Shown: positions 253-10,270 of the stretch, in pieces | How positions within the stretch are numbered: position 1 is the stretch's first letter | Layout of the letters: the number at the start of each line of letters is the position of its first letter | NCBI GenBank assembly: GCA_903821255.1 | Contig: CAIJKT010001094.1 | Location: forward strand, 1 to 10,270 | From: an uncultured Lentisphaeria bacterium | GTDB lineage: Bacteria; Verrucomicrobiota; Lentisphaeria; Victivallales; Victivallaceae | DNA: 10,270 nucleotides | Direction: 5' to 3' | Notes under the pieces: generated by a model | The model's database searches: none | Seen by the model: only the letters and a program-made list of their open reading frames with translations | What the model was told of the DNA's origin: nothing | Translations under genes and position numbers: made by a program

Positions 253-3200
253 ATGAAAAAAACAGTATGCAGAATGACAGTATTGTTGATGGCTGTGTGC
301 CTTGCCGCAACGTCGGCGCTGGCAATGCCGTCTTACAATGACGTATTGCTGGTGGTAAATTCCAATTCATCCGAATCCCAGGAGATCGGCGCGTACTTCA
401 AAGCGGCGCGTAATCTGCCGGATACGAACGTCTGCAGCATTAACGTCAAGGCCGGGGTTGACAGCGCCAGAATGAGTCATGACGAAGAGTTGTCGGCGCT
501 GTCCACCATCAAAAATCATCTGATCAAGAATGGCCTGACTGACAAGATCAATTATATCGTAGTGACCCGCGGCATTCCGTATTGGTCCTACACCGGAATC
601 AAAGGTCCTTTTCAATACGGCAGCAGTGCGGACGTTGACGGATATCATCTGTTCGACGTTTTCCTGATGTATCAGTTGTCGAATGCCGCCAGCGACTCGA
701 AGCTTGACAACATTTTCAACAACAATCCCTACTTCTATTACAATAACGATGCTGACAAACTGAACAAGAAATTTTCCAAAACAAAATTCGGCTTCTATAT
801 TGTCGGTCGTCTGGACGGCCCGGGGGCGATCACAATCAAAAATATGATTGACAGCACCGGTGCGCTCGCTTACGAGTCATACAAGAAACAGGCCAACGGC
901 AAAATGAAGCTGCTGACCCTTGCCCCGTATTACGATCAGACTTTCGCGGATGAGATCAACAGCCGCGGTAATATCGAAGTGGTTTCACCGAATCCGCTTC
1001 CGCCTGACGTGTGGAATCCTGATACTAAAACAACCACGCTGGTGGATATTGCCACCCCTGCCGCGGGCCAGATTCAGACAACCTTTGATAAAGTCGGCAA
1101 GGATGTGATGTTTTCCTACCTGAATGATGTTGCCTGGAGTTCGTTTTTTCCGTGGCCCAAGGGTAACAGCTATTACGCGGATGCCGACTTTGTTGATGAA
1201 TATCCGTTCATATACCGCGGTGCGACTTTTCTGCCCGGCTCGATCATGATGGTTTACCGTTCATTTCCGGCGGCTTATATGTCCCACACCGGAGTCGGCG
1301 GCCTGTATAAAATGAATATCTCCACCAAGGCGAAAATCGATTACCGTAAAACCGACGGCAGTGACATTGATTTCCGGCATACTACCTGCGCAGCTTATGA
1401 TCCGGTCAACAGCCAGGTATGGTGCGGAACCGGCGCCAGTCAGTTTGATGTCGGCATTAATTTCGATACGCGCTGCACGGACGATGCGCATCGTGAAACC
1501 ATGCGCAATTACGGCGGTGGGATTGCCATTTACGCCGCCGCCACCGGCAATATCATCAGTTATATCAATGCCAACGATGCAGGCAGTCCGCTGAAAAATA
1601 ATGCGGTGATGAAAATGGTCTACGACAAGAACTCCAGATACATGTGGGTGGCGCATTATAAAGGCATTCAGTATTATGACTTTACGGCTAAGACCTGGAA
1701 CGATGTTCCGGCGTTGCAGAATGATTATGCGGCGATGGCCGATATCTGCCTTGACCCGTTTGACAGCGACAAAGTATATTTTGCATTTTACTACAATGGC
1801 GCGAATGGCAATACCAAGAAAGTGTCTTCGCAGATTGCCGGCGCCGACACCAGTATTTTTGAGTACAGCAAAAGCGCCCAAACTGTAACGCCTTATGTGA
1901 TTGACGCCGTTAAGAACAAAGGCATTTTGCCGAAGATGGCCAAAACTTCAGCGAATACGATCTGGGTCAGCAAAGGCACCACGCTTTACCGTTATGATCT
2001 GTCAGCCAAGTCGGTTATTGAAACAATAGACCTGGCTGCAGTTATTCCTGAAATGGTGACTTTGCCGGTAAATGGCAGCACTGTTACTCTTGACACCCCG
2101 CGTCATCTTGTTTCGCCGGCCGCCGGAATTGCCATTGCCAGCGTCGGCTGCAATCTGACTTATACCAAAGATCTGCTGGATACAATGCCGGGTTCCACAT
2201 TCCAGAAAAAGAATTATCTGGTACGCATTGTTGAAACCACCCCTCCAAGTGCGGTCACCACAATCAATACCAGTACGATGAATGCGGTTTCGACCGCTGC
2301 TCCTAACTATAAAGTCAGGGACATTGTGGCCGATCCGGCTTCGAACGGCAAAACCCTGTATATGGCAGTGTCGGAGCCGGGGAGAATCTTGAGCTCAACC
2401 GATGGCGCGGGGGCGGTTTGGAAAGACTTTTCAAACGACTACAGCGCATTCAGCCAGGTAAAAGGATTAACCTTGGATGGCAATGGCTATCTATATGCAG
2501 TGGGCGGCTATAGAATGTCCCAGAATAATGCAGCAGACTTCCAGGCATTCGGACTGTGTGCCTGGGGCGGCGGCATGAGCCACGACGCGATGGAATATCT
2601 GGACCCTCAGCCATATGCATATTTCTCAGGCTCCGGACATCCTTATTATACGGGCGAAGGTTCCTGGAGCAGCAGCATGGGATACCGCGGCTCCTCGCAG
2701 ATGGAACCGATGATGTTCATGCTGCTGGACGGGTTTTACATGGGAGAAGCGCGTTTGAGCGTGTTTAAAGGTTATCCTGCGGAAGGCAGCGGCGGCCATA
2801 CCGGCCACATGCTGGTGTTTGAGCCGAAGTGCGCGCCGTTCGCGCCCAGAGTCAATGAAGCGATGCTGCCTGCCAATCCGCAGGTTGCAAATAAAGCAAC
2901 GCTCGACATTCCGATATTGAGTCCCGGACTGCCGTGGCGCATGAATGATTTGACGATGGAAAGCGTCAATAAGGATACTGTAAAAATTACCGATGAGACC
3001 GGCGCGGTATTTACGCCGGCGAAGTATGAATTCATTAAGCCGTTCGGTCCGGACGAAGCCGGCAAGGTTACCGGAACGGGTACATTGCGTATCTCCGGTA
3101 ATTACACCGGCATTGTCTATAGCGTCAAGCTGATTTGCGGCGTCAACGGCATTAAAAACATCAAAGGCGCGAGCCTGACCAATACGCGGACTACTGAATT

Positions 3201-3978
3201 TAAAGACGATATAACTTTATATTTCGGTAATGGCGTGGATATCAGCAAGGGAACATACGTTCCGCCGGATGCAGTCACCGGTCCGCAGAAAATGCCGCTG
3301 AGCAACTCCAAAATAGACCTGGTGGTGAACAAGGTGTGGCTGGCTGCCGCTCCGGTGACCGGCAAACCGCTGACCGTAAAATTCCAGATCAAGAATGTCG
3401 GCACGGTCAAAACCAATGCCGGAACTATTGTGGCGAATGTTTACTGGAACAATATACTGGTTGGCTCGGTCACCCACGGCGACCTTGCGGCAGGCGCTGT
3501 GAGTGCGGATCTCAGTTTCCTGCTGGATGCGCAATATGTAATTGTCGGACGCACTAATACTATTATGGTAATGGCGGACGGTACCGGCAAAGTTTCGGAA
3601 ATGCGTGAAACCAATAATACAGGTTCCACCACTTTCCTGATCGACAACAAGCCTGACCTGTCGGTAAAAGAAATCACACTGTCGTCGACCAAATCCGGAA
3701 TCACAACCGTGAACTTCAAAATTGCCAATGTCGGTTTCGGTCCCACCGCTGCAGGAGCGGGTGCTCAGACTGCGGCGGTCTATGTCAATAACAGTCAAGT
3801 CGGCACTGTACACTACGATGATCTGGCAAAGGGCGCGGTTGTCGCGTTGAAATTAGACAACGTCACCGTAACTGCCGGCGCCTGCAGAGTAAAAGTGACT
3901 GCCGACAGCGGGGGCATAGTCACAGAAGTTAACGAAAAGAACAACAGTCTGGAGAGAGCTTTTATCATCAAAAACTGA
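253..3978 (+). CDS. Large secreted TIGR03790-type protein with inserted propeller and two CARDB domains
   Basis: An exported 1241-residue protein of unknown function. Residues 1-24 form a signal peptide (basic MKK start, hydrophobic core, ALA before the cut). The mature N-terminus resembles the TIGR03790 family: 'YNDVLLVVNSNS', then 'INYIVVTRGIPY', then 'FLPGSIMMVYRSFPA' at about 326-340. Residues about 347-765 read as beta-propeller-like repeats (for example 'MWVAHYKGIQYYD', 'TIWVSKGTTLYRYDL', 'GYLYAVGGY'). TIGR03790-like motifs resume at about 817-833 ('MEPMMFMLLDGFYMGEA') and 856-863 ('FEPKCAPF'), so the propeller appears nested. An Ig-like segment follows at about 885-1000, then two CARDB domains at about 1020-1132 and 1134-1241, each ending in an E-x-N-N-type motif. 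No C-terminal anchor or PEP-CTERM sorting tail is present. TIGR03790 is known to co-occur with exosortase genomes; its activity is unknown. The gene has its own promoter and terminator. Confidence 0.8.
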   Translation: MKKTVCRMTVLLMAVCLAATSALAMPSYNDVLLVVNSNSSESQEIGAYFKAARNLPDTNVCSINVKAGVDSARMSHDEELSALSTIKNHLIKNGLTDKINYIVVTRGIPYWSYTGIKGPFQYGSSADVDGYHLFDVFLMYQLSNAASDSKLDNIFNNNPYFYYNNDADKLNKKFSKTKFGFYIVGRLDGPGAITIKNMIDSTGALAYESYKKQANGKMKLLTLAPYYDQTFADEINSRGNIEVVSPNPLPPDVWNPDTKTTTLVDIATPAAGQIQTTFDKVGKDVMFSYLNDVAWSSFFPWPKGNSYYADADFVDEYPFIYRGATFLPGSIMMVYRSFPAAYMSHTGVGGLYKMNISTKAKIDYRKTDGSDIDFRHTTCAAYDPVNSQVWCGTGASQFDVGINFDTRCTDDAHRETMRNYGGGIAIYAAATGNIISYINANDAGSPLKNNAVMKMVYDKNSRYMWVAHYKGIQYYDFTAKTWNDVPALQNDYAAMADICLDPFDSDKVYFAFYYNGANGNTKKVSSQIAGADTSIFEYSKSAQTVTPYVIDAVKNKGILPKMAKTSANTIWVSKGTTLYRYDLSAKSVIETIDLAAVIPEMVTLPVNGSTVTLDTPRHLVSPAAGIAIASVGCNLTYTKDLLDTMPGSTFQKKNYLVRIVETTPPSAVTTINTSTMNAVSTAAPNYKVRDIVADPASNGKTLYMAVSEPGRILSSTDGAGAVWKDFSNDYSAFSQVKGLTLDGNGYLYAVGGYRMSQNNAADFQAFGLCAWGGGMSHDAMEYLDPQPYAYFSGSGHPYYTGEGSWSSSMGYRGSSQMEPMMFMLLDGFYMGEARLSVFKGYPAEGSGGHTGHMLVFEPKCAPFAPRVNEAMLPANPQVANKATLDIPILSPGLPWRMNDLTMESVNKDTVKITDETGAVFTPAKYEFIKPFGPDEAGKVTGTGTLRISGNYTGIVYSVKLICGVNGIKNIKGASLTNTRTTEFKDDITLYFGNGVDISKGTYVPPDAVTGPQKMPLSNSKIDLVVNKVWLAAAPVTGKPLTVKFQIKNVGTVKTNAGTIVANVYWNNILVGSVTHGDLAAGAVSADLSFLLDAQYVIVGRTNTIMVMADGTGKVSEMRETNNTGSTTFLIDNKPDLSVKEITLSSTKSGITTVNFKIANVGFGPTAAGAGAQTAAVYVNNSQVGTVHYDDLAKGAVVALKLDNVTVTAGACRVKVTADSGGIVTEVNEKNNSLERAFIIKN

Positions 3979-5328: not shown

Positions 5329-5775
5329 TCAGTGTTTTCCGGTACTTCCGAAGCCTCCGGCCCCCCTGCCGGATTCAGAGAGTTCATCGGATTCGATGAA
5401 ATCCACTTCCGGCAGTTCGCAGATCACCATCTGGGCGATGCGTTCGCCGCGTTTGATGTGGAACGGTTCGCTGCCGGCGTTGTACATGATGATGCCGACT
5501 TCGCCGCGATATCCGGCGTCAATGGTGCCCGGGGAATTGGTCAGCGTGATGTCGTGTTTCAGCGCCAGTCCGCTGCGGGGCCTCACCTGCGCCTCAAACC
5601 CGACGGGCAGTTCGATAAAAAGACCGGTGGCCACGAGCTGGCTGCGTCCGGTGACCAGTTCCATATCCACTCTGGATCTGAGGTCGAAGGCGGCGTCGTC
5701 ATGGTGCGCCCGCTGCGGTTTTAGGTCGTCACACCCTTCCATCATTTTGAACCTGACCGTAACTTTAGTTCCCAT
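5329..5775 (-). CDS. dut: Deoxyuridine 5'-triphosphate nucleotidohydrolase (dUTPase)
   Basis: Hydrolyses dUTP to dUMP and pyrophosphate in the cytoplasm, keeping uracil out of DNA and supplying dUMP for thymidylate synthesis. The 148-residue product has all five motifs of the homotrimeric dUTPase family in order: motif 1 'AAFDLRS' (28-34), motif 2 '[11 protein letters not shown]' (66-76), motif 3 '[13 protein letters not shown]' (83-95) with catalytic Asp 86 and the uracil-site Tyr 89, motif 4 '[10 protein letters not shown]' (109-118), and the C-terminal glycine-rich motif 5 '[10 protein letters not shown]' (137-146). Length is typical. The frame extends upstream to 5850, but the ATG at 5773-5775 is chosen because GGAG lies 5 bases before it and family members begin here. 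The gene is convergent with the PLP enzyme gene and divergent from the pilus ATPase gene. The motif set looks fully functional. Confidence 0.97.
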
Positions 5776-5888
5776 TTTCACTCCGTTGCGATTATTGGCG
5801 TTGAGTTTGAATTCTTGATTACATGGTTTACTGTATACTGAGAGGAACATATTTCAACCGCCAGTATTCGGAGACAGGTAAAGCAATC
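5776..5888. promoter_or_regulatory. Divergent intergenic region with a candidate -10 box
   Basis: These 113 bases separate the starts of dut (minus) and the fused pilus ATPase gene (plus) and should hold promoters for both. On the plus strand TATACT at 5834-5839 is a good -10 match, but the nearest TTGATT (5815-5820) is only 13 bases away and TTGAAT (5807-5812) is 21 bases away, so no well-spaced -35 box is present. On the minus strand a TTGAAA (5857 to 5852) lies 14 bases from TATACA. The start points are therefore uncertain. Confidence 0.35.
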
Positions 5889-8090
5889 ATGCGAATTATC
5901 GAATTACTAAATGCCGCCGCGCAGTCCGAAGCGTCCGACTTGTTCATCTCGGCAGGCAAGCCGCCGTACGTCCGGCAGCTTGGCAAAGTCCTGCCGGTTG
6001 ATAGTGCACCCGTCACGGCGGAGGAAATCGAAGCTTTCCGCCGGAAAGTGCTGCTGCCGGGGGCGGAAGAGAAGTTCAACAGTTGCGGCAGTTACGATAC
6101 CGGATTTTCGCTGGAGCAGGGATTCCGTTTCCGGATCAATTTTCTGATTCAGCAGGGCCTGCCGGGAATGGTTGCGCGTCCGGTGCAGCTCGGCAGCGAC
6201 TTGTCGTTTGAAAAACTCCAGTTGCCGGGGATTATCCGGGAACTGTCCGATCTTCCCCGCGGGCTGGTTCTGATTGTCGGTTCCGCCGGCAGCGGCAAGT
6301 CGACGACGATGGCCGCCATGATCAACCATATCAATAATCACTATGAAAAGCATATTGTCACCATTGAAGATCCGATCGAATATATTCACCAGGATATAAA
6401 AAGCCTGATCACCCAGCGCGAAATCGGCGCCGACACCACCTCCTTTTCCGAAGCTTTGACCAATGTCGTCCGCGAAAGCCCGAATGTCATCGTTATCGGT
6501 GAAATGCGCGACCTGGTCACCATGCAGACGGCAGTCACCGCCGCGCTGACCGGGCATCTGGTCATTTCCACGGTGCATACGGCGGATACCGTGCAGGCGC
6601 TGGAGCGGATCATCAACCATTTCCCGGAGCATCTGCGGCGGCAGGCCGCCGACGATCTGTCCCTGGCGCTGGAAGGAGTCATCGCCCAGCGGCTGGTTCC
6701 CCGTGAAGATCAGCCCGGCATGATTCCGGCGGTGGAAATCCTGCGCGCCACTCCGGTAGTCCGTTCGCTGATCGCGGACCGCAATTTTAAAGACCTGGAA
6801 ACCGCGATCCGCCGCGGCCATGAAGACGGCATGGTCACCTTTGACCGGGCATTGTGCGAAATGCAGAAATCCGGCAGGATCTCGCTTGAGACCGGACGCC
6901 TTGCGGCATCCAATCCGGATGAATTTCTGCTGCTGTCAAAAGGCATGGAAAGCGGCATCGAGACTTTCCGCGATCTTTCCAGCAAAGAGGAATCCGATAC
7001 CGATAAGATCAATATCAAGCGGCTGCTGCATTCCGCAGTCGCCAACAACGCCAGTGATCTGCTGATCAGCGCCGGCTGCCGCCCGACGGTCCGGGTTAAT
7101 GGCGAACTGGTGCCGATGGACACTGACACCATGACTTCCGCCGACACCAAACGGCTGCTGTTCAGCATTCTTTCGCCAAGACAGCGGGCTGATTTTGAGG
7201 AGAACCGGGAAATAGATTTTGCCTTGACCGTGCATCTTAAGCGCAGCGATGCGCCGGAGGATGCCCCGCCAGACCAGTGCCGTTTCCGCGTAAACGGTTT
7301 TTACCAGCGCGGCAATGTCGGCACGGCAATCCGCGTTATTCCCCAGACCATACCGACCCCGGAAGACTTGAAGATTCCGGCGGCAGTCGTCGCCCTTACG
7401 GATAAAAAACATGGTCTGATTCTGGTCACCGGCCCGACCGGACACGGCAAAAGCACCACCCAGGCCAGTCTGATTGACCGGATCAACTCTAAACATGGAT
7501 GTCATATCATTACGGTGGAAGACCCGATCGAGTATGTCCACCAGAACCGTAAAGCGGTGATTGAACAGCGCGAAGTTCACGCCGATACTTTAAGTTTTGC
7601 CAATGCCTTGAAATATGTCCTGCGCCAGGATCCCGACGTGATACTCGTCGGGGAAATGCGCGATACTGAAACCATTGCGGCGGCGCTGACCGCGGCGGAG
7701 ACCGGGCATCTGGTCATGGCCACGCTGCACACGAACAATGCCCCCCAGAGCATTGACCGCATCATCGATTCATTTCCCGCTCATCAGCAGAACCAGATAC
7801 GGCTGCAACTTTCCGGAACGCTGCTGGGAATCATTGCCCAGCGGCTCATCCCGCACAAGGACGGGCGGGGCAGGGTGGCGGCGTTCGAGGTCATGCTCGG
7901 CACTCCGGCGGTGCAGTCGCTGATCCGGGAAGGCAAGACCAGTCAACTGCAGTCCGTCATTGAAACCAGCTTCAAGGACGGCATGATCACGATGGAAAAG
8001 GCGATGATGGAATTATATAATAAGAATTTGATTTCAAGGGAAAGCGTCAACAGCATGCTGAAGAACTTCAAGCAGGACAAGGCGTATTAA
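5889..8090 (+). CDS. Tandem PilU-PilT fusion, double type IV pilus retraction ATPase
   Basis: A 733-residue cytoplasmic protein with two complete PilT/PilU-type ATPase modules; ordinary PilT or PilU is about 340-380 residues and hexameric. Module 1 (about 1-372) opens with 'ASDLFISAGKPP' and has Walker A 'GSAGSGKSTT' (131-140), 'IEDPIEY' (159-165), 'GEMRD' (204-208) and 'STVHT' (227-231). Its tail 'FDRAL...SNPDEF' recalls PilU. Module 2 (about 374-733) has 'ASDLLISAG', Walker A 'GPTGHGKSTT' (515-524), 'VEDPIEYVHQ' (543-552), 'DPDVILVGEMRD' (581-592), a 'TLHT' box and 'GTPAVQSLIRE', which corresponds to PilT's AIRNLIRE motif. The modules differ widely, so this is an old duplication or a pilU-pilT fusion rather than a recent copy. 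The frame opens at 5823, but the ATG at 5889 matches where PilT proteins begin and has an AGG 10 bases upstream. It probably powers pilus retraction or a related type IV filament system. ispF follows after 47 bases. Confidence 0.93.
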   Translation: MRIIELLNAAAQSEASDLFISAGKPPYVRQLGKVLPVDSAPVTAEEIEAFRRKVLLPGAEEKFNSCGSYDTGFSLEQGFRFRINFLIQQGLPGMVARPVQLGSDLSFEKLQLPGIIRELSDLPRGLVLIVGSAGSGKSTTMAAMINHINNHYEKHIVTIEDPIEYIHQDIKSLITQREIGADTTSFSEALTNVVRESPNVIVIGEMRDLVTMQTAVTAALTGHLVISTVHTADTVQALERIINHFPEHLRRQAADDLSLALEGVIAQRLVPREDQPGMIPAVEILRATPVVRSLIADRNFKDLETAIRRGHEDGMVTFDRALCEMQKSGRISLETGRLAASNPDEFLLLSKGMESGIETFRDLSSKEESDTDKINIKRLLHSAVANNASDLLISAGCRPTVRVNGELVPMDTDTMTSADTKRLLFSILSPRQRADFEENREIDFALTVHLKRSDAPEDAPPDQCRFRVNGFYQRGNVGTAIRVIPQTIPTPEDLKIPAAVVALTDKKHGLILVTGPTGHGKSTTQASLIDRINSKHGCHIITVEDPIEYVHQNRKAVIEQREVHADTLSFANALKYVLRQDPDVILVGEMRDTETIAAALTAAETGHLVMATLHTNNAPQSIDRIIDSFPAHQQNQIRLQLSGTLLGIIAQRLIPHKDGRGRVAAFEVMLGTPAVQSLIREGKTSQLQSVIETSFKDGMITMEKAMMELYNKNLISRESVNSMLKNFKQDKAY

Positions 8091-8137: not shown

Positions 8138-8611
8138 ATGTACAGAATAGGACAGGGATTTGACGTTCACCGGTTTGTCGCGGACAGGCCGCTGGTCCTC
8201 TGCGGGGTGACAATCCCGCATCATGTCGGGCTGCTCGGACACAGCGACGCCGATGTCGCGGTTCATGCGGTAATGGATGCCATGCTGGGGGCGCTGGCCC
8301 TGGGCGATATCGGGGAATGGTTCCCGGACAACGATCCGGCATTCAAAAACGCCAACAGCATGGATTTGCTGGTGCAGATCATCGGCGATGAACATTTTTC
8401 CACTTATGAGATCATGAACCTGGATATCACGATTATCGCCCAGCGCCCTAAAATCAAACCGTATGTTGATCAGATGAGAACCAATCTCGCCGGAGTGCTG
8501 GACTGTGCCCCCGACAGGATTTCCGTCAAAGCCACCACCACCGAAGGCATGGGATTCTGCGGCCGCGAAGAAGGCGTCGCCGCCATGGCCGTAGTTCTCC
8601 TGGGAAAATAA
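8138..8611 (+). CDS. ispF: 2-C-methyl-D-erythritol 2,4-cyclodiphosphate synthase
   Basis: Cyclises CDP-ME 2-phosphate to methylerythritol cyclodiphosphate with release of CMP, a middle step of the MEP isoprenoid pathway. The enzyme is normally a homotrimer with zinc at the subunit interfaces. The 157-residue product has the usual length and signature: 'IGQGFDVHRF' at the start with metal ligands Asp 9 and His 11, 'GHSDADVAVHAVMDA' with the third ligand His 43, and 'KATTTEGMGFCGREEG' (131-146), the conserved nucleotide-side loop. GGAG at 8128-8131 sits 6 bases before the ATG. It lies 47 bases after the pilus ATPase gene with only a short T run (no stem) between, and 9 bases before the next gene, so all three are likely in one transcript. 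IspD, the common partner, is not next to it here. Confidence 0.97.
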   Translation: MYRIGQGFDVHRFVADRPLVLCGVTIPHHVGLLGHSDADVAVHAVMDAMLGALALGDIGEWFPDNDPAFKNANSMDLLVQIIGDEHFSTYEIMNLDITIIAQRPKIKPYVDQMRTNLAGVLDCAPDRISVKATTTEGMGFCGREEGVAAMAVVLLGK

Positions 8612-8620
8612 CAGACGCTC

Positions 8621-10270
8621 ATGGTTTCAATAATGAAAAAACTGTTTTTATTACTATTGTGTTGCAGTTTTACGGCCGTCGCGGTCGAAATTGAGAATGA
8701 GGCTTTAATCAAAGAAGCCATTGCCGTCATCGGAGAGTATAAACCGGCTAAAACCGGCGAACGCGTGGAACTGTACCTGAGCGACTATGATGACGATGAT
8801 AAAGTAACCGGCAGACTCCGCAAATTAGACTCGAACAGGATTGTCCTGGATTTGGACGACGGCACAACCGCCGGATATAAGCAGGATGACGTCTCGTTAA
8901 AGTCCAGATGGATCTTTTTTAAAGAGGCATATTATAAACGGCTGGCTGACACCATCTATAAACTGGCTGAAGATAAAAGGCGGCTCGAAGAAGCCAGACT
9001 TCAGACAACCGGAGAGGCCGGAACCGCAAACAGCAGAAACATCCCGAGCTGGCGTCAGGTAAATTACAAATATGACGCGGTTGCACCTTATTTCGAGGTT
9101 GTTAATTTCCCCGACAAACGCCCTGCCGCTGCTCAGAAAGAAGCGAATAACGGAGTATCCAGTATCGACGCCGTTGTCACCAGGGAAAGCGGCGTTTTCA
9201 GGGTCAAGGCAAAAGGGCAGGGCGATAATATTGATGACGCCCTCAAGCAGGCCTTTAAAGACGCAATCCGGAAGGTGGTCGGGGTATATGTTGACAGCTT
9301 TGAAATTGTAAAAAACGAAGAAGTCATCGAAGACAGGATCATCACCCACAGCAACGCTTTCATCAAGGACTATTTGAAAACGACCCCGTTCTCCGGCGGC
9401 ATAATTGAAATAGAAGCAGTCGTCGTCATCGACGATTTTGAGTCGGCCCTGAAAGACAACCGGATCACTTTCAAAGCCAATGTCAGCGGTTATGCCCTTT
9501 TTGCTGAAACCTCGACCAAACTGGACGGCTTGAAAGACGCGACAAGCGTTTTTCAGAACATCTTCCAGAATTTTCCGCGTAAAATAACGAAAATATCAGC
9601 TTCGGAAGTCAAACTTTACAATGAGGAAAAAGGTCTTTACGTTACAAATATTAAAATCGAAACCGACCCGCGGAAATATCAGGTGTTTGTAAAGGAAACG
9701 GAAAAAGCGCTTGACTCAATCTGCAAAGGAAAATGTATTTTTAAAGTTTACTTCAAGGAAGTAACCTACGCCGATGAAAAAGATAAAGTCAAGCAGAGAG
9801 AGCTTCAGAAATTAGGTTTCTCTCCAAGATACAGCGCGTTCAGCGGAACCAGATATCATTCCGAGTTAAATTCTCTGCCGGAACTGAAACTCGCAGCAAA
9901 ACGGGATCCGGCCGCAGCCGCAAGGCTGGACGAATGCAGAAAAAAGCTTCGCGCATACTGGCCGTATTATTGCAATACGCTCATTTTTCAGAAGATCCAG
10001 GATTTCTGGAAATCCTATGATTTTGACTGTTCCCCGTTCAGGATAGTCAGAGATATTGATTATGACAAAGGCATTATGACGTTTGTCCTTTATGCGATTC
10101 CGGGGACTGTATGTAAAAGCGTTGAGACGATCAACAGGCAGGAACTGCCCGCCGGGGACATGCAGAAAATAGACGCGAGTTTATTCAGACCGGCCGCGCC
10201 TTATTACTGGAATGATTTGATTTTAATGGTGGATCTGAAAAACGGCATTGATACCGTCTGGAGTAAAAGG
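8621..10270 (+). CDS. Exported protein of unknown function, FlgT/LPP20-like segment (3' end outside window)
   Basis: The frame is open for 550 codons from the ATG at 8621 to the window edge without a stop, so the C-terminus is missing. An alternative ATG at 8633 (MKKLFLLLL) gives a more typical signal peptide; neither has a clear ribosome binding site. The signal sequence probably ends at AVA before 'VEIENE'; its two cysteines lack a proper lipobox, so a lipoprotein is unlikely. Residues about 49-92 are an acidic, small-barrel-like segment ('VTGRLRKLDSNRIVLDL'), followed by a charged helical stretch (about 100-128, 'KLAEDKRRLEEARL'). Residues 191-254 contain 'AKGQG...ALKQAFKDAIRKVVGVYVDS...DRI...IKDYLKT', resembling the pattern in FlgT-N and LPP20-like periplasmic proteins. 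The rest is not recognised. A periplasmic or outer-membrane-associated role is likely; function is unknown. It follows ispF by 9 bases. Confidence 0.8.
   Translation, partial: MVSIMKKLFLLLLCCSFTAVAVEIENEALIKEAIAVIGEYKPAKTGERVELYLSDYDDDDKVTGRLRKLDSNRIVLDLDDGTTAGYKQDDVSLKSRWIFFKEAYYKRLADTIYKLAEDKRRLEEARLQTTGEAGTANSRNIPSWRQVNYKYDAVAPYFEVVNFPDKRPAAAQKEANNGVSSIDAVVTRESGVFRVKAKGQGDNIDDALKQAFKDAIRKVVGVYVDSFEIVKNEEVIEDRIITHSNAFIKDYLKTTPFSGGIIEIEAVVVIDDFESALKDNRITFKANVSGYALFAETSTKLDGLKDATSVFQNIFQNFPRKITKISASEVKLYNEEKGLYVTNIKIETDPRKYQVFVKETEKALDSICKGKCIFKVYFKEVTYADEKDKVKQRELQKLGFSPRYSAFSGTRYHSELNSLPELKLAAKRDPAAAARLDECRKKLRAYWPYYCNTLIFQKIQDFWKSYDFDCSPFRIVRDIDYDKGIMTFVLYAIPGTVCKSVETINRQELPAGDMQKIDASLFRPAAPYYWNDLILMVDLKNGIDTVWSKR

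Follow-up and report, generated by a model that had tools for sequence, protein, structure and literature searches.

PilT, the retraction ATPase of the type IVa pilus, and PilU, a PilT-dependent retraction ATPase, are known as separate proteins. In proteobacteria they are encoded by adjacent genes, pilT followed by pilU, and the C-terminal tail of PilU is free. KaiC and other tandem ring ATPases, which belong to a family different from that of PilT and PilU, form double hexamers.

How PilU works via PilT, with what geometry and in what stoichiometry, is left open in the available passages of PMC13142100, PMC6762196 and PMC12607626, the last of which states that orientation and stoichiometry need experiments. 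The simplest model in the passages available from PMC6762196 is a PilU hexamer directly beneath PilT, and the available parts of PMC6821130, PMC6762196 and PMC12607626 report that separate PilT and PilU do not mix within one ring. A PilU-specific C-terminal segment, typically absent from PilT, is described in the relevant passages of PMC12607626, where modelling suggests that it stabilises PilT binding. The sections available from PMC13142100 cite, from another work, a PilU-like density directly under PilT, and present a model in which the PilU C-terminal domain lies against two adjacent PilT N-terminal domains. No description of a PilU-PilT fusion was found in the open-access literature searched; the passages on fusion available from PMC6668835 concern other genes, and the database names of the fused proteins described below, where present, are at family level only.

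The fused gene and its occurrence

The window (the whole stretch of DNA that was analysed, 10 270 nucleotides) contains a single open frame of 733 codons without a stop, which carries two complete PilT-family ATPases. The features of this gene and of its neighbours are as follows.

5329–5850, reverse strand: dut (dUTPase), divergent upstream neighbour, adjoining the fused gene in 5 of 24 related loci
5889–8090, forward strand: fused PilU-PilT gene, 733 amino acids with stop, from frame, motifs, profiles and homologue lengths
5889–6188, forward strand: PilU-type half, N-terminal (PAS-like) domain, residues 1–100, limit approximate
6189–6905, forward strand: PilU-type half, RecA-like ATPase domain, residues 101–339, limits approximate
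6279–6305, forward strand: PilU-type half, Walker A motif GSAGSGKST, residues 131–139
6492–6512, forward strand: PilU-type half, Walker B motif VIGEMRD, residues 202–208
6750–6779, forward strand: PilU-type half, AIRNLIRE site, here TPVVRSLIAD, without Arg-Glu
6906–6971, forward strand: PilU-type half, conserved tail, residues 340–361
6972–7007, forward strand: variable linker, residues 362–373, within a low-pLDDT stretch
7008–7349, forward strand: PilT-type half, N-terminal domain, residues 374–487, limits approximate
7350–8033, forward strand: PilT-type half, RecA-like ATPase domain, residues 488–715, limits approximate
7431–7457, forward strand: PilT-type half, Walker A motif GPTGHGKST, residues 515–523
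7644–7664, forward strand: PilT-type half, Walker B motif LVGEMRD, residues 586–592
7902–7931, forward strand: PilT-type half, AIRNLIRE-type motif, here TPAVQSLIRE
8138–8611, forward strand: ispF, downstream neighbour, adjoining the fused gene in 6 of 24 related loci

An alternative start upstream, the ATG at 5823, would give a protein of 755 amino acids; the start at 5889 was favoured because four of the five closest homologues among the matches listed are 730–733 amino acids long (the fifth is 758). The 733-residue protein was matched twice by PF00437 (Pfam) and twice by TIGR01420 (pilT_fam, the NCBIfam 'PilT/PilU family type 4a pilus ATPase'), with a total of 821.6 bits against a cut-off of 319.1. 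The halves of the near-identical gene in the closest genome, G215, scored 452.1 and 373.5 bits with TIGR01420, each alone exceeding the cut-off. Identity between the two halves is 39% over 347 columns, and Walker A, the acidic box, Walker B (GEMRD) and the histidine box are found in both. This architecture of two ATPases in one chain is far beyond chance. The preliminary description, made from the window alone, had read the chain as two full retraction ATPases, each with these four motifs, and had assigned an AIRNLIRE-type motif to the second; it was correct in each respect, the last motif being present as the variant AVQSLIRE.

Two open frames on the minus strand, at 5907–6821 (304 codons) and 6936–7580 (214 codons), lie opposite the fused gene and are perhaps a by-product of its codon usage. 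Elsewhere in the window, 253–3978 encodes a 1241-residue protein with CARDB repeats and a sub-threshold match to TIGR03790. A further open frame, at 8621–10270, is ended by the window end; neither Pfam nor NCBIfam matched it at E 0.001, and G215 keeps a counterpart beside ispF with 84% identity. The window gave no Rfam match at gathering scores, and the promoter-like and terminator-like matches are consensus matches only.

Two modules were present in all 241 proteins collected, that is, the window protein and 240 others (clusters at 90% identity), these being the best 120 homologues for the window protein and the best 120 for the L057 protein of about 8000 scored; one of the 241, P0114, is without the start of the first module. 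Among at least 592 matching stretches, 80 loci were taken from species genome contigs. Both modules lay in one frame in 17 of these, and in the other 63 most of the query was matched without a single frame showing both modules. Within the phylum of G001, where the carrier loci are named Lentisphaerae, Victivallaceae, Kiritimatiellota and Verrucomicrobia, 58 of 240 genomes gave a fused-gene match at E ≤ 1e-150. These matches fell at 61 places, none with an internal stop; 60 of the frames are at least 723 amino acids long and one, of 570, is ended by the contig end. In the phylum of G016, whose loci carry the names Myxococcota and Deltaproteobacteria, the fused gene occurred in 29 of 188 genomes, with frames of 713 to 1207 amino acids. 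Nearly all of the named carriers among the matches listed are labelled MAG or uncultured, the exceptions being P0007 ('Lentisphaerota bacterium ZTH') and P0196. P0007 is probably strain zth2 of PMC11361711 and is a candidate for a culturable carrier. A search of plasmids revealed no apparent fused gene among the best 20 of at least 5000 records.

G215 encodes a 96% identical protein in a single frame, in the gene order dut, fusion, ispF as in the window. The same order recurs in L162 (from G161), L001, L002 and L167, and L163 has the fusion followed by ispF; in the remaining 18 of 24 loci compared, neither dut nor ispF lies beside the fused gene within the DNA examined. The possibility raised in the preliminary description, that an assembly or sequencing error had joined two genes, was rejected, with nothing in its favour and a negligible probability, given the single frame and shared gene order of G215, the recurrence of the same two modules in 240 further proteins and the conserved length of the linker. 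The search for the same architecture in related genomes, suggested in the same description, was successful in the two phyla. The fused gene is genuine, of old origin and widespread, and it unites two different retraction motors.

Several carriers showed additional peculiarities. Two fused genes per genome were found in G015, G158 and G198. The first half of L015 (from G015) is on a very long branch, with the invariant catalytic residues still present. P0209 and P0214, from the L057 homologue list, are fused proteins of 1017 and 1021 residues.

Kinship of the two halves

A quick tree of 141 rows included 25 first and 25 second halves of fused proteins. The first halves formed one clade (100) inside a 55-row set holding PilU (99), and the second halves formed one clade (98). 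A careful tree of 85 rows, unrooted and without an outgroup, contained 17 fused pairs. It omitted 37 of 122 rows, namely three PilB, the fused pairs L014, L015, P0180 and P0206, and other long-branch or paralogue rows; five of those omitted came, by the 122-row tree, from the PilU side (L063, L111, L146 and the third genes of L025 and L059). One branch of the 85-row tree (ultrafast bootstrap 100, SH-aLRT 93) divides a PilT side from a PilU side. The PilT side, of 50 rows, holds all 17 second halves, eight proteobacterial PilT, the carriers' pilB-adjacent PilT and others. The PilU side, of 35 rows, holds all 17 first halves, eight proteobacterial PilU, eight separate PilU-like proteins of carriers and two Armatimonadota genes that are the first of three. 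First halves and second halves each form their own clade. When a PilB outgroup was included in a 122-row quick tree, the root fell beside the fused second halves, so that these were not one clade (two changes); this root was given no weight because the PilB branch is very long.

Profile scores agreed with the trees. The PilU profile scored higher in 31 of 31 first halves and the PilT profile in 31 of 31 second halves, the margins for the window protein being 43 bits (first half) and 29 bits (second half). Structure matches fitted both halves without telling PilU from PilT. The suggestion that the first half is PilU-like and the second PilT-like, to be checked by placing each half in a tree, is thus upheld by both trees and profile scores.

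The first split in both half-clades is the same, separating an L016-related set (Myxococcota and Bradymonadia, where named) from a Lentisphaerota/Verrucomicrobiota set, and the pairwise distances of first and second halves correlate at 0.90; a single fusion event with subsequent joint descent of the halves would produce this pattern. In the tree, the fusion evidently had a single origin. A single pilT gene, recently duplicated in tandem at the locus and then fused, would account for two halves that are adjacent and 39% identical, but this origin is very improbable: forcing the halves into one clade costs 39.1 log-likelihood units (p-AU 0.00099), and in the 85-row tree the first and the second halves form two distinct clades. 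Local duplication, which the preliminary description had considered in the form of halves that are each other's closest relatives, is refuted under the tree model used.

The second half resembles PilT in fold, in catalytic residues, in an AIRNLIRE-type motif with invariant Arg and in its side of the tree; it differs in sitting behind a PilU-type module, and the clade of second halves is apart from the carriers' pilB-adjacent PilT. The first half resembles PilU in its side of the tree, in a tail that extends past the PilT end and in the loss, in this lineage, of the AIRNLIRE Arg. The tail of this half, unlike the free tail of PilU, leads into PilT. The adjacent pilT-pilU genes of proteobacteria bring the same two motors together, but as two genes in the order T then U, whereas the fusion is one gene in the order U then T. 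An unfused row is found in Armatimonadota (L017, L018, L020 and L022), where a PilU-side gene is followed by two PilT-side genes; in the 85-row tree the fused second halves have nearer kin than the PilT genes of L018 and L022.

Catalytic residues and the junction

Among 138 fused proteins neither half shows any variation at the key Walker A Gly and Lys, the acidic-box Glu or the Walker B Glu, and the histidine box retains its His in 136 first halves and in all 138 second halves. Both halves are predicted to act as ATPases. For comparison, 50 control pairs from 52 loci were used, in which PilT and PilU were assigned by position alone and of which at least L076 is no PilT-PilU pair in the 141-row tree. 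All 257 second halves of fusions keep the AIRNLIRE-type Arg, as do 49 of 50 separate PilT; it is present in 109 of 257 first halves over all fusions and in 19 of 50 separate PilU (the second genes of the pairs). A general loss of this Arg in first halves, as seen in the first set of mainly Lentisphaerota/Verrucomicrobiota proteins (kept in 2 of 138), was considered and rejected when the second homologue list was added. The absence of AIRNLIRE as a mark of PilU holds for the first half of the window protein (TPVVRSLIAD), although the feature itself is not absolute.

The first half evolves faster than the second (mean p-distance 0.49 versus 0.41). The most conserved part is the second-half ATPase domain and the least conserved is the first-half N-terminal domain. 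The ratio of divergence between N-terminal and ATPase domains is 1.40 in first halves and 1.44 in the separate PilU of the control pairs; the corresponding values are 1.30 in second halves and 1.28 in separate PilT. Because these ratios match, the two halves would appear to remain under the constraints that act on separate PilU and PilT, respectively. The conservation gradient was also considered as support for stacking of the halves and was rejected, since the same ratios in separate PilU and PilT mean that the gradient is merely inherited.

The PilU-type tail (residues 340–361; family consensus approximately NRDEFLLLVxGMESGIETFR) is conserved up to residue 361, and the next 12 residues are variable. 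The linker is 10–17 residues long in 130 aligned proteins and 12 residues in 76 of them. Beyond the position equal to residue 350, the 50 mostly proteobacterial PilT of the control pairs have a median of 1 residue and their 50 partner PilU a median of 25.5 (quartiles 22–32). The PilT half of 257 fusions starts 23 residues past this position (quartiles 22–24, range 19–29), that is, about where the tail of a proteobacterial PilU would end. The carriers' own separate PilU-like proteins (n = 12) have only 9–15 residues here, so the spacing matches that of proteobacterial PilU and not theirs.

Separate gene pairs run pilT then pilU in eight of eight cases in the 85-row tree, and the fusion has the reverse order. 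A fusion serving the geometry modelled in the passages available from PMC13142100 must run PilU then PilT, because the PilU C-terminal domain there lies under the PilT N-terminal domains. Order and tail spacing fit the published stacking models.

Ring arrangement and role in the carriers

The reading that we prefer, and hold to be probable by a modest degree, is that of a covalent PilU-PilT fusion of single origin that forms two stacked hexamers and serves as a retraction motor, tethered via the PilU-type tail. Six fused chains would assemble into the two rings. The PilT ring would act on PilC, the platform protein, and power retraction of the pilus, and the PilU ring would hang beneath it, held by the PilU-type C-terminal tail, and add force. 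In such a covalent chain, recruitment of PilU would be obligatory and the stoichiometry fixed at 6:6.

The preliminary description had named stacked rings and a mixed ring of three double subunits as the alternatives, and the evidence leans to stacked. In a mixed ring, the three double subunits would make up one hexamer with PilU-type and PilT-type modules in alternation. The available passages of PMC13142100 describe, for both PilT and PilU, rings in which the ATPase domain packs on the N-terminal domain of the next subunit, and with such packing and a flexible linker of 10–17 residues a U-T chain could fill two neighbouring places; the alternating open and closed ring interfaces reported there for both proteins would also suit such a ring. 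The orientation of PilT cited in the passages seen of PMC6762196 places the AIRNLIRE motif, a part of the ATPase domain, towards the cytoplasm and, like the short tails of the carriers' own separate PilU-like proteins, counts against the stacked reading. Conversely, the separate proteins are reported not to mix in the parts available of the three papers cited above, although fused modules still could, and the divergence profiles of PilU and PilT are still distinct in the two halves, although mixing once joined would be compatible with this. A mixed ring is on this evidence rather unlikely.

In two AlphaFold2 runs each half folded well and the mutual arrangement was unsure (pTM 0.51 and 0.64); the KaiC rows among the structure matches had an rmsd of 14–17. 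In a mean-field coupling analysis of 261 fused sequences, with an effective number of 156, the top pairs were scattered over all domain combinations, and for this reason the result was taken as noise that does not separate the models. Interface residue pairs are listed in the available part of PMC6858323, with within-chain and between-chain contacts together.

The other pilus genes were examined in 21 carriers, 17 from the locus set and four picked from genomes of the G001 phylum. At least one separate PilT-scoring gene was found in 20 of the 21 and a separate PilU-scoring gene over the cut-off in 15, counts in which G005 is represented by fragments only and the PilU assignment of G016 is narrow. 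G215 holds separate PilT and PilU-like genes besides the fused gene. In six of six genomes tested, a PilC-type gene adjoins the PilT that follows two PilB-type genes; PilM matches were present in all six, over the cut-off in three. In both the window and G215 the fused gene is located away from this pilB-pilT-pilC cluster, beside dut and ispF. As the carriers usually also hold separate PilT and PilU, the fusion has the look of an additional motor and not of a simple substitute, and with its position outside the cluster it may serve another task, which counts against the preferred reading.

Two further arrangements were observed in carriers. At L015:409-3972, a short way upstream of a fused gene, a 1187-residue protein combines a protein kinase domain (95–350) with a PilB/GspE-type ATPase domain (797–1180). 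L112, L114, L116, L117, L137, L141, L143 and L145 have a further tandem pair of PilT-family genes, one with a long N-terminal extension and one short, both scoring as PilT.

The fusion could also be a specialised extra motor, in which sensing or recruitment is the main task of one half, probably the PilU-type, and which serves a second pilus or a secretion system. Several PilT-family, PilB-type and PilC-type loci per genome would accord with this, as would the PF14332 domain additionally carried by the long homologues P0209 and P0214. The faster evolution of the first half also points this way, but separate PilU likewise diverges more than PilT, and the first half is no less invariant than the second in its catalytic residues. 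We regard this specialised role as improbable. The fuller form of the stacked reading, a two-deck motor with the PilU tail as tether and an obligate 6:6 composition, which arose once, occurs in two distant phyla and stands beside separate PilT and PilU in many cells, is in our judgement only just on the favourable side of even.

A single chain with both motors removes the problem of stoichiometry, and one purified protein can show stacking or mixing. Each motor half can moreover be inactivated separately in the fused chain. The U-T order, the reverse of the usual pilT-pilU pair, provides evolutionary evidence on the arrangement that is independent of modelling. The main value of the fusion is that it makes the arrangement of PilT and PilU testable with one protein.
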